Source: Syntrophorhabdaceae bacterium (lineage in GTDB: Bacteria; Desulfobacterota; Deferrimicrobia; Deferrimicrobiales; Deferrimicrobiaceae). From it: DNA of 35,601 nucleotides. Where the stretch lies: positions 1-35,601 of the forward strand of contig WRHP01000014.1 in the NCBI GenBank assembly GCA_009783195.1. Reading direction: 5' to 3'. Position 1 is the first letter of the stretch, and the number at the start of each line of letters is the position of its first letter. Below the pieces are notes generated by a model. The model ran no database searches. It was not told where the DNA came from and saw only the letters and a program-made list of their open reading frames with translations. The position numbers and the translations under genes were made by a program. This document shows positions 20,655 to 28,296 of the stretch, in pieces.

Positions 20655-21809
20655 ATGGATAAAATCCGTATCGCTATATCTGGTGTTGGAAACTGCTGCA
20701 GCGCGCTGCTGCAAGGAATCGAATATTACCGCGACGGCGCGCCTGGCGCCCGTGGTGAATTCATTTCTGGATTGATAACCCCTGACATCGGCGGTTATCT
20801 CCCCGGAAGCATCGAAGTTGTGGCCGCGTTCGATATTGATCGCCGGAAAGTCGGCCGCTCCTTATACGAGGCTATTTTTTCCGCGCCCAATTGCACAAAG
20901 CGGTTCGTCGAGAATATGCCGCCTGGTGGGCCAATCGTCCTTATGGGACCAATTCTCGACGGTATCGCCCCCCACATGTCCGACTACCCCGATGACCGCA
21001 CATTCCTGCCCGCCGACGAAAAACCTTGCGATGTGGAACAGGTACTGCGCGAGTCGGGCGCCGAGATCCTCGTAAACTACCTGCCGGTGGGATCAGAGAA
21101 GGCGACGCGGCATTATGCCGAAGCGTGCCTGCGCACGGGCGTAAGCATCGTAAATTGCGTCCCCGTGTTCATAGCCTCTGACAAAGCCTGGGCCAGGCGC
21201 TTCCAAAACGCAGGCATCCCGATCATCGGCGACGACGTGAAATCTCAACTCGGGGCAACGATCGTTCACCGGGAATTGGCGCGCCTTTTCTCGGAACGCG
21301 GCATCCGCCTTCTGAGGACCTATCAGTTGAACACGGGAGGGAACACCGATTTCCTGAACATGCTGAACCGCTCGCGGCTGGAGTCGAAAAAGATCTCCAA
21401 AACAGAGGCTGTCGTCAGCGCCTTGTCACACGAAATCGAGATAGACGACGTTCATATCGGACCGTCGGACTATGTTCCCTGGCAAAAAGACAACAAACTC
21501 TGCTTCATGCGTATCGAGGGGGAAGGGTTCGGGGGACTGCCGATCGAGGTTGAACTGCGGCTCTCGGTTACAGATTCGCCAAACAGCGCGGGAGTCGTTA
21601 TCGACGCGATCCGCTACTGCCGTCTGGGAAGGGACACGGGATTATCGGGGCCGCTGAACGCCCCATCCGCGTACTTCATGAAACATCCTCCCGAACAATA
21701 TCCAGAGGATTCGGCGCGCCGTGATCTTGAGGAATTTATCGCGGATTATAAAGCGTGGAAAAAGACGAGATCAGCTTCGCCCACGAGCCGGTACACTTTT
21801 CCTGCTTGA
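20655..21809 (+). CDS. ino1: myo-Inositol-3-phosphate synthase
   Basis: This enzyme converts glucose 6-phosphate to 1L-myo-inositol 3-phosphate (also called 1-phosphate) with bound NAD, the only de novo route to inositol. The 384-residue protein is of the short prokaryotic type. The N-terminal Rossmann part reads IAISGVGNCCSALLQGIEYY, and later come NYLPVGSE, VNCVPVFIAS, GDDVKSQLGATIVHR, TYQLNTGGNTDFLNM and the SKTEAV segment. These match the actinobacterial/archaeal Ino1 family. The ATG at 20655 follows GGGGAA by about nine bases. Its last 74 bases overlap the 3' end of the convergent glycosyltransferase gene. Inositol is uncommon in proteobacteria, so the product probably feeds a dedicated pathway with the neighbouring genes. 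Confidence 0.93.
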   Translation: MDKIRIAISGVGNCCSALLQGIEYYRDGAPGARGEFISGLITPDIGGYLPGSIEVVAAFDIDRRKVGRSLYEAIFSAPNCTKRFVENMPPGGPIVLMGPILDGIAPHMSDYPDDRTFLPADEKPCDVEQVLRESGAEILVNYLPVGSEKATRHYAEACLRTGVSIVNCVPVFIASDKAWARRFQNAGIPIIGDDVKSQLGATIVHRELARLFSERGIRLLRTYQLNTGGNTDFLNMLNRSRLESKKISKTEAVVSALSHEIEIDDVHIGPSDYVPWQKDNKLCFMRIEGEGFGGLPIEVELRLSVTDSPNSAGVVIDAIRYCRLGRDTGLSGPLNAPSAYFMKHPPEQYPEDSARRDLEEFIADYKAWKKTRSASPTSRYTFPA

Positions 21810-22911
21810 ACGATTCCGCCACTTTCGGTCCCGAGAAGGCAAGACGAGCGCGAAGGAACGGATCGGAAAGCAGCAACGTCATTGCTTTCACCAGCCCTTC
21901 CGGGTCATCCGCTGAATAAACAAGCCCTCCGCCCTCCGACCGGATCATTTCCCCCCAGAAAGTGCCTTCCGGCACAATCACCGGCACGGCTGTCGAGAGC
22001 GACTCAAGCGGCACCAGACCAAACGACTCGTAACGGGCAGGACAGACCACCGCATCAACGGCGGAATACAAAAGCGCCATGCTGTCGTGCGGAACCGGGC
22101 CAAGGTATATGACATGCTCCTCATTCGCTTCGCCCGCCTCGTCTTGTCCGGCGACTATAAGCAGGATTTTCTTGTTCAACCGGGAAGAGAGAATACGGAT
22201 CGCTTCCAGCGCCTCTGACAGGTTCTTCCCCGGATCTTTCCGCGCCGCGAATAAAAAGACATCACCGGTAATAGGTAGTCCAAGCAGCGAACGGGCGACC
22301 TCGCGTGGAACGGGGAAGCGAAACCTGTCGTCGATCCCAGGCGGAATGACAAACGACTTTCCTTTAAGCTCCGGGAATATCTGGATCGTGCGGTTCTGCT
22401 CATGCTCGGTGAAAAAAACCACGCCTCTGGCTTCGACGGCCAGCCGCGCCTCCTCCTCGTAGCGAATGAGGGATAACGGACTTTCTTCTCCGCCACGCCT
22501 CGCTTTATGAGCTTCAATCGTGTGATATGACAGCAGCATGGGCGCTTTGAAAAGGCGCTTGGCCGCCACGCCGGACATCCAGTAGTGGGCGGAAACGACC
22601 GTAGGCTCGATCCGCTCTCCATGAAGCAAAAGGCGGGCCTTCTCGATAAAGACATCTATAGACTCCCAGGCGCTTTCCCGGGTCGGCGGTTTTTTCCAAA
22701 AGCATGGCACATGGAATATTCGGACACCCTCAAACGGTTCGGAAATTTCAACCGTTTCTCCGACAGCCCGCGTTATAACATTCGTATTTATTCCTTCTTC
22801 AGCGAGCCTGCGAAGCAACCCTTCCAGAAAGACATTCATGCCGCCGGCTAATCCCTCGCCCGGCTCCTCCAAGGGGCATGTGTGGTATGAGACCAGCAGA
22901 TGTGAAATCAA
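21736..22911 (-). CDS. MshA-like GT4 glycosyltransferase
   Basis: The 391-residue protein has the two Rossmann-like domains of GT-B enzymes. The N-terminal segment SYHTCPLEEPGEGLAGGMNVFLEGLLRRL and the later AHYWMSG closely follow MshA, the D-inositol-3-phosphate glycosyltransferase that makes GlcNAc-inositol-phosphate in mycothiol synthesis. The C-terminal donor site has RKDPGKN and ARYESFGLVPLESLSTAVPVI with the E-x7-E motif. Sucrose-phosphate synthases share some of this, so the exact substrates are not proven. Close linkage to an inositol-3-phosphate synthase supports an inositol-phosphate acceptor. The start is TTG at 22911, overlapping the upstream stop (TTGA), and matches the usual N-terminus of the family. 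It is the last gene of a three-gene operon. Confidence 0.85.
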   Translation of the reverse strand: MISHLLVSYHTCPLEEPGEGLAGGMNVFLEGLLRRLAEEGINTNVITRAVGETVEISEPFEGVRIFHVPCFWKKPPTRESAWESIDVFIEKARLLLHGERIEPTVVSAHYWMSGVAAKRLFKAPMLLSYHTIEAHKARRGGEESPLSLIRYEEEARLAVEARGVVFFTEHEQNRTIQIFPELKGKSFVIPPGIDDRFRFPVPREVARSLLGLPITGDVFLFAARKDPGKNLSEALEAIRILSSRLNKKILLIVAGQDEAGEANEEHVIYLGPVPHDSMALLYSAVDAVVCPARYESFGLVPLESLSTAVPVIVPEGTFWGEMIRSEGGGLVYSADDPEGLVKAMTLLLSDPFLRARLAFSGPKVAESFKQEKCTGSWAKLISSFSTLYNPR

Positions 22912-23891
22912 GAAGCCACCGTCACGCGACGCACCGCACGATCTCTTCCTCCAAGATCATATTTATATCGCTCCGTGCCGCGGAGAAAATCGTATTCAAC
23001 CGCTCCTTCCTCAATAGCGCTCTCGATACACCGCGCAATGAGGACCAGGCCTGGGTTAGCTGACCGACGCCTGGGATCGTACCCCGAATTATATAGGAGT
23101 ACAGAGCGCCCGGCCCGAAACTGTAACGCCGCAGCAATATCTTCTCCCTCACTGGACAGAAACGCAAGGCGCAGCATCCCCGCCCGGAAAAAGCCGCTTG
23201 CAACTTCATGAAAAAAAGCCGCCATCTGGTCGTCCATGAACTTTTCTTTGCCGGGAGCGCTCTTGCGGTGAAGATCAATAAATGACCGCATATCCAGCAT
23301 GAATTCTCCCTCGGTCATGGTCAAGCGAAAGGAAAGCCCCGGCAGTTGTTCCGCCGCCCTGCGCATTTTTCTGCGCAGTTCGTGCCGCTCCTTTTGCCCG
23401 AGCAAAGCAAGGTAATCTTCGAAGGAACCGGGCAGCGAAACATACGGCGCCTGATCCATTTCCTCAACGAGGCAGGAGAGACCGGCTTCCTCGCACAGCC
23501 GCGGCAGTATCACATGGGAAGGGGTATCTTCCGCCAATCCCGGCAGCAAAAGAGGCCCGCCCCCCAGCGCAGGGAGCCCCTCTTCCAGGAATTCCCGCCA
23601 GAAAGCTTCCTCTCCGCCCGGAGTAACAATGGCGTCAAAGTAATCCGTCACATTCTCGCCGCCAAGAAACGTCCATCCTCCGTAATCCAAGCGACGAAGG
23701 AACAAAAGCCCCTCCGGCGTGTCGCCAGACGGGAACCAGGCGACCACGCGAACGCTTTGTCCGGAACAGAATGCGAGACACCATGGAACGAGAAACAACC
23801 GCGAAAGAAATGGCGACGGAGAAGAAAGCCGCGCTAACAAAGCATCCCATACTTCGAAGGATATTTTCTCAAATTCGATCAGCCGGATCAT
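22908..23891 (-). CDS. GNAT-type acyltransferase (BioF2-like/Acetyltransf_6)
   Basis: The 327-residue protein resembles the BioF2-like branch of the GNAT fold, also called CelD/BcsL-type. Signs are LFLRRLDYGGWTFLG in the first half, the basic segment QKERHELRRKMRRA near residue 190 and the C-terminal half with LRLAFLSSEGEDIAAALQFRAGRSVLLYNSGYDP, followed by GLVLIARCIESAIEEG and YDFLRGTERYKYDLG. Members transfer acyl or aminoacyl groups to sugars and peptides. No signal or membrane helix is seen. Mycothiol synthase MshD is also GNAT but differs in sequence, so equivalence is not claimed. Both ends overlap neighbours by four bases (ATGA upstream, TTGA downstream), tying it tightly to the lipoprotein and the glycosyltransferase. 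Confidence 0.8.
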   Translation of the reverse strand: MIRLIEFEKISFEVWDALLARLSSPSPFLSRLFLVPWCLAFCSGQSVRVVAWFPSGDTPEGLLFLRRLDYGGWTFLGGENVTDYFDAIVTPGGEEAFWREFLEEGLPALGGGPLLLPGLAEDTPSHVILPRLCEEAGLSCLVEEMDQAPYVSLPGSFEDYLALLGQKERHELRRKMRRAAEQLPGLSFRLTMTEGEFMLDMRSFIDLHRKSAPGKEKFMDDQMAAFFHEVASGFFRAGMLRLAFLSSEGEDIAAALQFRAGRSVLLYNSGYDPRRRSANPGLVLIARCIESAIEEGAVEYDFLRGTERYKYDLGGRDRAVRRVTVAS

Positions 23892-24517
23892 CTGGAAGTT
23901 CCAGCCACGCCCTTCTCTCGCAAACGCCGAGCAGCTTCATCTGCGGCACTGTTGGCGGCAGATGAGAGCGCTTCCCGGATATTGTCCGGCAACGGAAATA
24001 CTTCCTGCGTAACGGCGTTGCTCGAAACCGATGTTTCCCACGGAACCGGCACGCTTCGCCCGGATACGGAAATAGCCAACTCTATCGTCGTATCTATGTA
24101 TACGTTGACTATGTTCCGGCGGCGGATATCAACGCCAAACCGCCGGACTGTCCCCTTGATTACGCTTGAAAAGTCATCCGTTACCGGGTCTCCCGGTTTC
24201 AGCCGTGACACCGGCACGCCCCGTTCCGACAGCGCGTCGGCAACCAGACCGGCCATCAGGCTACCAGGATCGCCTTCCCAGACAATCTGGCGCGCCCGAT
24301 CATAATCCCGGCCGATAACCTTTGGTTCGTCCGTAGGCGTATAGGAGAAATCCATCACCGCAACCTTGATACCGGACAACTCCGGAACAGGCGGATCAAC
24401 GACGGGCGGGCGGGAAATCCCGTCAGGAATGAGCAACTGGTTTGCCGGACCGCAACCCGCAAAGACAGCCGCAAATGACATAATGCAGAGAAAAAACGCC
24501 AAAATATTTCGCTCCAA
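23888..24517 (-). CDS. Putative lipoprotein, operon head
   Basis: I read a 209-residue lipoprotein starting at TTG 24517, with AGGAGG just upstream. The signal ERNILAFFLCIMSFAAVFAGC ends in a good lipobox. The longer reading frame to 24562 also begins with TTG and adds no useful sequence. The mature part begins with a Pro-rich stretch. It then has KVAVMDFSYT, GSLMAGLVADALSERGVPV, IKGTVRRFGVDIRRRNIVNVYIDTTIELAISV and a helical C-terminus. The pattern is reminiscent of YajG- or CsgG-like outer-membrane lipoproteins, at low confidence. It heads the operon with the GNAT and glycosyltransferase genes, suggesting that the product of that pathway may relate to the envelope. Confidence 0.75.
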   Translation of the reverse strand: MERNILAFFLCIMSFAAVFAGCGPANQLLIPDGISRPPVVDPPVPELSGIKVAVMDFSYTPTDEPKVIGRDYDRARQIVWEGDPGSLMAGLVADALSERGVPVSRLKPGDPVTDDFSSVIKGTVRRFGVDIRRRNIVNVYIDTTIELAISVSGRSVPVPWETSVSSNAVTQEVFPLPDNIREALSSAANSAADEAARRLREKGVAGTSR

Positions 24518-24683
24518 AGTCCCTCCTGGAAAAGCCACAAAAAGCGAATTCTTATGCAACAAATGGCTTAACTTTAAGACATGCTATTACAGGATTCAAC
24601 CGCCTCTTGCCGCGCCCGCCGGAAGTGGTATCGTTACAATTTGTTATTACAGAACAAAGCGCCAAAGATACGCAGGGGGGGAA

Positions 24684-26941: not shown

Positions 26942-27889
26942 TCAGAGAAGCACGCTCCAGTTTCCTCCCTCTTCCCGATTGCGCCACCGCGTTTCGCTCT
27001 CTCCCGACGGAAGACGAACGACCACCTGGTAACAATATTCGACCCGGCTTCCCGAAGGCCCAAACACGCGCGCCTCGAAAGTGCGCGGCACGGGCAGCCG
27101 GGAAAGGGCCGCAAACCGCTCCACGCGCGCCAATTCGAGATCCTGCGCAAAATATTCGTTGGCAGCCGAGAGTTCCCCTTCGACCATTCCTTTGGCCTCC
27201 ATTGGGGATACGTTGACAGCCCGCCATGAGGGATCGCTCCATATGAGCCGCGCGGAGATAATTTCTCCAGGCTCATCCAGAAGCGTGATTCGGGCGCAGG
27301 CGATCTTGTCGCGCCGAAGCTCCTCGTCGCCAGAGGTATGGTAGAAAAAATAAGGCATGGGGCTATTTTTCAGCACCGAAAGCGTCTCCGGTATCTCTAT
27401 GACCGGAGGCAGCCCGTCCCCTACTTCCACGGCGGCGCGGCAAAGCAGCGGCGAGGGTTTCTTCCGCATCGCGCCAAAACCGTACCGGATGGTTCCGGAC
27501 GCCCGTTCCCCGTCTTCAACGGGCAGAGCAAACCGGAAATATCCGCGGCCGGCGGCAGGAACGAGGTTGCCGCCTTCTTCTTCGGGAATACGACACAGAT
27601 CGCGGGTCAGTTCGTCGGAAGGAACCTTTACTTCATAAACGGGAGAGTCCCATTCCTTGCCGCGGCAGACGGAGGAAAAACGATACCGGACCAGCACATG
27701 TCCGCCCTCCGGAGGTTCAGGAATCGATATGTGCGCTACGCGCAGGCCCGGATCCTCCGTGGGAGCCACCACTCGAGTCGCTTTGTAAGGAAAAGCCTGG
27801 TTTTCACCGTCAGTGGCAACTTCAGCGTGCAGGAACACGATCTCCGGATGTTCAGCGGCATCATGGTATTCGCGTCTTAACAGAAGCAT
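26942..27889 (-). CDS. Conserved-looking protein of unknown function
   Basis: I do not recognise this 315-residue protein. It has no signal peptide or membrane helix. The sequence is rich in beta-strand-like stretches such as GGHVLVRYRFSSV, SGTIRYGFGAM, FEARVFGPSGSRVEYCYQVVVRLPSGESETRWRN. The first and last thirds look somewhat alike, as if two immunoglobulin-like or carbohydrate-binding-like domains flanked a middle section. The ATG at 27889 has AAGGAGG seven bases upstream. It is the last gene of a run that begins with flgM and includes the small metallopeptidase, 38 bases upstream. Confidence 0.65.
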   Translation of the reverse strand: MLLLRREYHDAAEHPEIVFLHAEVATDGENQAFPYKATRVVAPTEDPGLRVAHISIPEPPEGGHVLVRYRFSSVCRGKEWDSPVYEVKVPSDELTRDLCRIPEEEGGNLVPAAGRGYFRFALPVEDGERASGTIRYGFGAMRKKPSPLLCRAAVEVGDGLPPVIEIPETLSVLKNSPMPYFFYHTSGDEELRRDKIACARITLLDEPGEIISARLIWSDPSWRAVNVSPMEAKGMVEGELSAANEYFAQDLELARVERFAALSRLPVPRTFEARVFGPSGSRVEYCYQVVVRLPSGESETRWRNREEGGNWSVLL

Positions 27890-27927: not shown

Positions 27928-28296
27928 TTATCTATACCCCAGCCTCTCCAGTTCCTCTTCCTCCATTCCAAAATAATGTCCAATCTCATGAAGCAATGTA
28001 ATGCGGATTTCGTCAGCCAGCTCCGATGGGTCCGGAAAATCTTCTTCGAGAGGCCCCCGATAGATCGAGATGCTGTCCGGCAGACTGCCCGAATCCTGGA
28101 TCGACCGTTCCGGCAGAGGAATCCCGTGGAAAAAACCGTACAGGGTCTCCTCCGGCGGAATGTTCATATCATCGAGCAGCCACTCGGGAGGCCAATCCTC
28201 CAAGACGATTGCCACGTTCGTCAACGCATCCCGAAATACAGCCGGCAACTCCGAAAGCGCTTTTTCGAGCGCCCGGTCAAACCCGGGTTTACTCAT
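27928..28296 (-). CDS. Small zincin-type metallopeptidase
   Basis: The 122-residue product matches the 'metallopeptidase family protein' group of minimal zincins. The motif HEIGHYFGM (residues 103-111) supplies two zinc-binding histidines and the catalytic glutamate. The third ligand is not obvious from the sequence. Earlier segments ALTNVAIVLEDWP, LYGFFHGIPLPERS and ISIYRGPLEED are also typical. It has no signal, so it is probably cytoplasmic. Substrates of this family are unknown. The ATG at 28296 has only a distant AAGG upstream. It lies between two genes of unknown function in the flgM-headed run. Confidence 0.85.
   Translation of the reverse strand: MSKPGFDRALEKALSELPAVFRDALTNVAIVLEDWPPEWLLDDMNIPPEETLYGFFHGIPLPERSIQDSGSLPDSISIYRGPLEEDFPDPSELADEIRITLLHEIGHYFGMEEEELERLGYR

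Follow-up and report, generated by a model that had tools for sequence, protein, structure and literature searches.

Mycothiol biosynthesis is the closest described counterpart of the locus considered here; one account reports mshA-D from Actinobacteria only (PMC6282198), and another terms low-molecular-weight thiols understudied in anaerobic bacteria (PMC9874932). MshC, a CysS paralogue, forms the link between amino sugar and cysteine, and the Fem ligases are GNAT-fold enzymes that use aminoacyl-tRNA (PMC2922099). Both chemistries are thus known, and the present proposal is their exchange within one pathway. The locus lies on contig WRHP01000014.1 of a Syntrophorhabdaceae bacterium (assembly GCA_009783195.1; the window is the whole stretch analysed, 35,601 nucleotides), where an inositol-3-phosphate synthase gene, ino1, converges on an operon of a lipoprotein-like open reading frame (ORF), a GNAT-family protein and a GT4 glycosyltransferase resembling MshA (Table 1). 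We tentatively propose, with a little less than an even chance of being right, that this locus makes a mycothiol-type thiol in which a FemX-like GNAT stands in for MshC and adds the cysteine, with Cys-tRNA as its likely donor. Among the matches listed from the open-access literature, in the text accessible, there was no printed account of such a pathway.

The arrangement of these genes is not due to chance. In 26 genomes of the window's class searched for GT4, ino1 and GNAT, the three were found in 22, 23 and 21 genomes, respectively. GT4 and ino1 are convergent on the same contig in 21 of the 22 GT4-positive genomes, the exception (G004) having both at contig ends, and the GNAT gene stands directly upstream of GT4 in 20 of the 22, the GT4 of the other two (G015, G017) marking a contig end. 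Gene order is kept even in the two genomes of a second family, despite a GT4 only 31% identical to that of the window. One genome that is 97% complete (G016) yielded none of the three genes, and another (G002, 74% complete) GNAT pieces alone. The convergence of ino1 on the operon, as the preliminary description had it, is thus borne out by coordinates, overlaps and domain matches, and the linkage of GT4, ino1 and GNAT in relatives by the class counts. By name the setting likewise looks non-actinobacterial, as had been stated: the loci of five relatives (L001-L005) belong to Deltaproteobacteria by record name, a sixth (L006) to bacterium CPR1, and four GNAT homologues among the matches listed, 53-57% identical, are named Candidatus Deferrimicrobiaceae; the source bacterium is likely a deltaproteobacterium.

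The identity of the first two enzymes was assessed with Pfam and NCBIfam models and their curated cut-offs, applied to selected window ORFs. The ino1 product matches the solved Ino1 1gr0 (E 2.1e-116), and its sole NCBIfam match is the mycothiol_INO1 model TIGR03450, at 424 bits under a cut-off of 638. The GT4 scores best, among 18 models, with the MshA model TIGR03449 (134.4 bits, under the cut-off of 462.5); it reaches 33.7 bits with the sucrose-phosphate synthase model TIGR02472 (cut-off 576), and MshA is the top solved-fold match of its predicted structure (an AlphaFold2 model). The MshA landmarks named earlier, EPGEGLAGGMNVFLE and AHYWMSG, are both present. Four of the residues that we take to contact the acceptor (N25, Y110, T134 and R154) are kept, and the fifth, K78, is replaced by R. 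In the residue table M24 is found in 40/40 rows and T134 in 38/40, where sucrose-phosphate synthase carries Q and S. The window protein also keeps G23, H133, R231, K236, E316, F318 and E324 of the UDP (uridine diphosphate) and inositol-phosphate site, residues named in PMC12182360. The preliminary description had made its case depend on linkage in relatives and on the place of the GT4 in a tree: the linkage was found, and the tree, which omits two of the five GT4s of the source genome, leaves MshA versus sucrose-phosphate synthase unsettled, as it does the bootstrap. One sequence, L080, was excluded from table and tree: its translated stretch included a codon that was not read and was much extended at the 5' end. 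The GT4 is predicted to transfer N-acetylglucosamine (GlcNAc) onto inositol-3-phosphate.

The same association is seen more broadly. In a sample of 395 phylum genomes drawn from a larger group, GT4 at E <= 1e-45 was found in 48, of which 32 lie outside the class; up to four first-look candidates were scored per genome, and GT4- or Ino1-negative calls may therefore conceal misses. Window-type Ino1 is present in 40/48 GT4-positive against 136/347 GT4-negative genomes (Fisher p 4.9e-9) and, with the class removed, in 24/32 against 136/346 (p 9.7e-5), both p values being uncorrected for kinship. Given that six of the eight GT4-positive genomes lacking window-type Ino1 have another PF01658 synthase, an inositol-phosphate synthase is present in 46/48, a figure without a matching control because the PF01658 search was limited to GT4-positive genomes; the two genomes with no such match are 85% and 73% complete. 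Because GT4 and ino1 are linked in the class, the pocket residues are of MshA type, MshA is the top fold and a synthase accompanies the GT4 in 46/48, the core inference of the preliminary description, an inositol-linked pseudo-disaccharide, is supported.

Outside the class, 28/32 loci have a GNAT gene no more than about 400 bp 5' of GT4 and in the same orientation (in L103 clipped by a contig end, in L107 matched in two pieces). Of the remaining four, L084 holds GNAT fragments, L101 has a CysS-tail gene in that place and its GNAT on a different contig, and L090 and L105 end there. In 17/32 loci GT4 is followed by a PIG-L gene in the same orientation, the two operon PIG-L proteins scanned scoring best with BshB models. 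A glyoxalase-II-like hydrolase is encoded no more than 2 kb away in 13/32, the two scanned having TIGR03413 as best model; glyoxalase II in known cases works on thioesters of such thiols. In one genome (G379) the genes for a different type of inositol-phosphate synthase, an S51-like protein with a CysS tail, two Gfo/Idh/MocA proteins, GNAT, GT4 and PIG-L follow one another on a single strand.

The GNAT itself is predicted (AlphaFold2 model) to be a double-GNAT over its full length, with FemX-type proteins as its nearest solved folds, about 4 Z units above MshD; FemX, FemA and MprF are all close in fold. Going by its top fold match, then, the protein resembles FemX rather than MshD, which corrects the preliminary reading. 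With Pfam FemAB_like (PF04339) the window protein scores 22.1 bits, under the cut-off of 27, and the G379 GNAT 32.6 bits, and a profile of the GNAT against solved sequences gave two chance matches only. K310, near the C-terminus, is invariant in 43 rows and is a candidate counterpart of the catalytic Lys305 of FemX. The CoA-loop pattern [QR]xxGx[GA] after residue 240 occurs in 2/43 rows and is absent by eye from the window protein. The GNAT is predicted to be an aminoacyl (cysteinyl) transferase with tRNA as donor.

Several neighbours bear on cysteine. A protein joining an S51-like front to a C-terminal CysS anticodon-binding domain is encoded 0.4-4.5 kb from GT4 in 8/32 outside loci, as well as upstream of the G156 GNAT (L138) and in L006; PF23493 is above cut-off in both copies scanned, and in the eight the matches extend through the tail. 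This S51-like/PF23493 fusion is itself unusual (L006:8503-9687 and L116:5140-6393, with homologues in L091, L097, L101, L102, L107, L110, L111 and L138). In G051, a CysS-like protein without the anticodon-binding domain sits between the hydrolase gene and GT4, in a genome that also carries a full-length CysS; beside it is a GNAT remnant only, in fragments of different frames (L084 8870-9300), and no GNAT was found elsewhere in that genome at E <= 1e-5. With the MshC model the G051 protein scores 376.9 bits and one in G156 374.7, other CysS matches reaching at most 327.3 (cut-off 485.1); for these two proteins the CysS model gives the higher score. A strict rule of exclusion between GNAT and MshC was dropped since G156 has both. 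There, an OsmC-family peroxiredoxin gene directly follows the MshC-like CysS gene (L115 9582-10010).

The preliminary description had placed MshB and MshC outside the window and suggested a genome search for them. Among the window ORFs scanned, a selection of its genes, none is MshB- or MshC-like (IleS reaches 18.8 bits with the MshC model). The source genome does hold two PIG-L proteins (L010, L011), the better at 107.5 bits to TIGR03445 (cut-off 224.35), and its MshC search returned IleS alone, at 18 bits. This assembly (1.74 Mb, 81 contigs, 88% complete) has no CysS match at E 1e-10, so that its absences mean little; 54 GT4-positive genomes were used instead, and 0/54 have MshC above cut-off.

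In the pathway we favour, Ino1 would supply inositol-3-phosphate, the GT4 would attach GlcNAc to give GlcNAc-Ins-P, and a PIG-L deacetylase from another part of the genome (L010 or L011 being candidates) would free the amine, onto which the FemX-like GNAT may set cysteine. With a putative phosphatase step, the product would be cysteinyl-glucosaminyl-inositol (Cys-GlcN-Ins, des-acetyl mycothiol) or a derivative, and in relatives this thiol would be used by the glyoxalase-II-like hydrolase encoded next to the pair. The class would employ the same enzymes, its loci having ino1 where others have the deacetylase gene. Of this scheme, the genes, their linkage, the retained residues and the neighbouring genes of relatives are seen directly and the two folds are predicted, while the substrates, the attached cysteine, its tRNA donor, the phosphatase step and the product are inferred. 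More speculatively, a widespread Gram-negative set may make Cys-GlcN-Ins without MshC by a tRNA-dependent route, the S51-CysS tail helping to bring tRNA-Cys in some lineages and a truncated CysS having replaced a decaying FemX-like gene in one.

The best-placed alternative, though an unlikely one, is that an inositol-glucosamine conjugate is made that is not a thiol, the GNAT adding an acyl group or a different amino acid and the product being a glycolipid of the envelope or a charged solute. FemX, FemA and MprF act on envelope precursors or lipids, the lipoprotein ORF lies 5' of the GNAT in the class, and JGI labels many of the 120 GNAT homologues listed 'CelD/BcsL family acetyltransferase involved in cellulose biosynthesis'. 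However, the lipoprotein, which the preliminary description had taken as a pointer to the envelope, is seen in class loci only, as far as searched, and beyond the class the pair is accompanied by PIG-L, a CysS-tail protein or the glyoxalase-II-like hydrolase, and once by an MshC-like CysS, which indicates cysteine; the envelope preference expressed earlier is not supported, and the thiol option is now ahead. Further, no phosphatidylinositol synthase was found in the incomplete source assembly, and a phosphatidylinositol route was set aside: its two CDP-alcohol transferases are by eye PgsA-like and one beside psd, with no third.

Less probable again is a mycothiol-like thiol in which the GNAT is the finishing acyltransferase, in the role of MshD, while another enzyme, such as a CysS paralogue, ligates the cysteine. 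The preference of the predicted fold for FemX-type proteins over MshD and the scarcity of the CoA-loop pattern both speak against that role, and several near-complete class genomes, including G020 and G006, have a single CysS-like match each, below the MshC cut-off. At least two CysS-like matches occur in 14/22 class genomes; the divergent second copies in L132, L133 and L136 were rejected as MshC equivalents, being by eye full length with a CysS-like tail. That the GT4 is sucrose-phosphate-synthase-like, acting on another sugar phosphate with ino1 as a mere convergent neighbour, is very improbable given the model scores, M24 and T134, the synthase in 46/48 genomes and the neighbouring PIG-L, which fits an N-acetyl sugar.

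Table 1. Features of the ino1/GT4 locus in the window.
Feature	Position	Strand	Basis
ino1, inositol-3-phosphate synthase, mycobacterial/mycothiol type	20655-21809	+	PF01658, 120.5 bits
Tail-to-tail overlap GT4/ino1, 74 bp	21736-21809	.	coordinates
MshA-like GT4 glycosyltransferase, predicted inositol-phosphate acceptor	21736-22911	-	TIGR03449 (MshA) best NCBIfam model
PF13480 GNAT, predicted FemX-like double-GNAT, predicted aminoacyl (cysteinyl) transferase	22908-23891	-	99.9 bits
Lipoprotein-like ORF, 5' of GNAT in class	23888-24562	-	lipobox-like GC by eye

The lipoprotein/GNAT and GNAT/GT4 gene pairs each overlap by 4 bp, and the GT4/ino1 overlap is of identical length in L001-L004. Matched stretches of these two genes overlap in 19/19 window-family genomes with both on one contig and do not in two genomes of the other family. 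The lipoprotein-like ORF gave zero matches in Pfam and NCBIfam scans and is retained at 29-41% identity in L001-L005; two additional genes, by eye a substrate-binding-like protein and a sensor kinase, separate it from GNAT in L003 (1412-4974) and L004 (1382-4962). Elsewhere in the window, ORFs at 26942-27889 (315 aa, no Pfam match) and 27928-28296 (122 aa, no NCBIfam match) are retained near two aminotransferase genes in L001, L002 and L005.

The conserved set of Ino1, MshA-like GT4 and PIG-L with a FemX-fold enzyme constitutes a named, testable candidate pathway. If the proposal is true, mycothiol-type chemistry extends far past Actinobacteria, and Cys-tRNA has a new use in making a redox cofactor. 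The locus resembles the mycothiol system of Actinobacteria (Ino1, MshA, MshB, MshC, MshD) in its Ino1 of the same type, its MshA-like GT4 pocket residues and, in relatives, PIG-L by GT4, but differs in having no MshC above cut-off and a FemX-like GNAT linked to GT4. With bacillithiol (BshA, BshB, BshC) it would share a GT4, a PIG-L and a cysteine-adding step. Its predicted full-length double-GNAT fold is that of FemABX-type GNATs such as FemX and Sbb17/Sba18 (9wqx, 9wqy), the latter two solved with streptothrisamine, an amino-sugar compound. Onto that compound Orf11 puts glycine from Gly-tRNA (PMC12945691). The present GNAT differs from these proteins in its 9-18% identity to them and in its linkage to an MshA-like GT4 and ino1.
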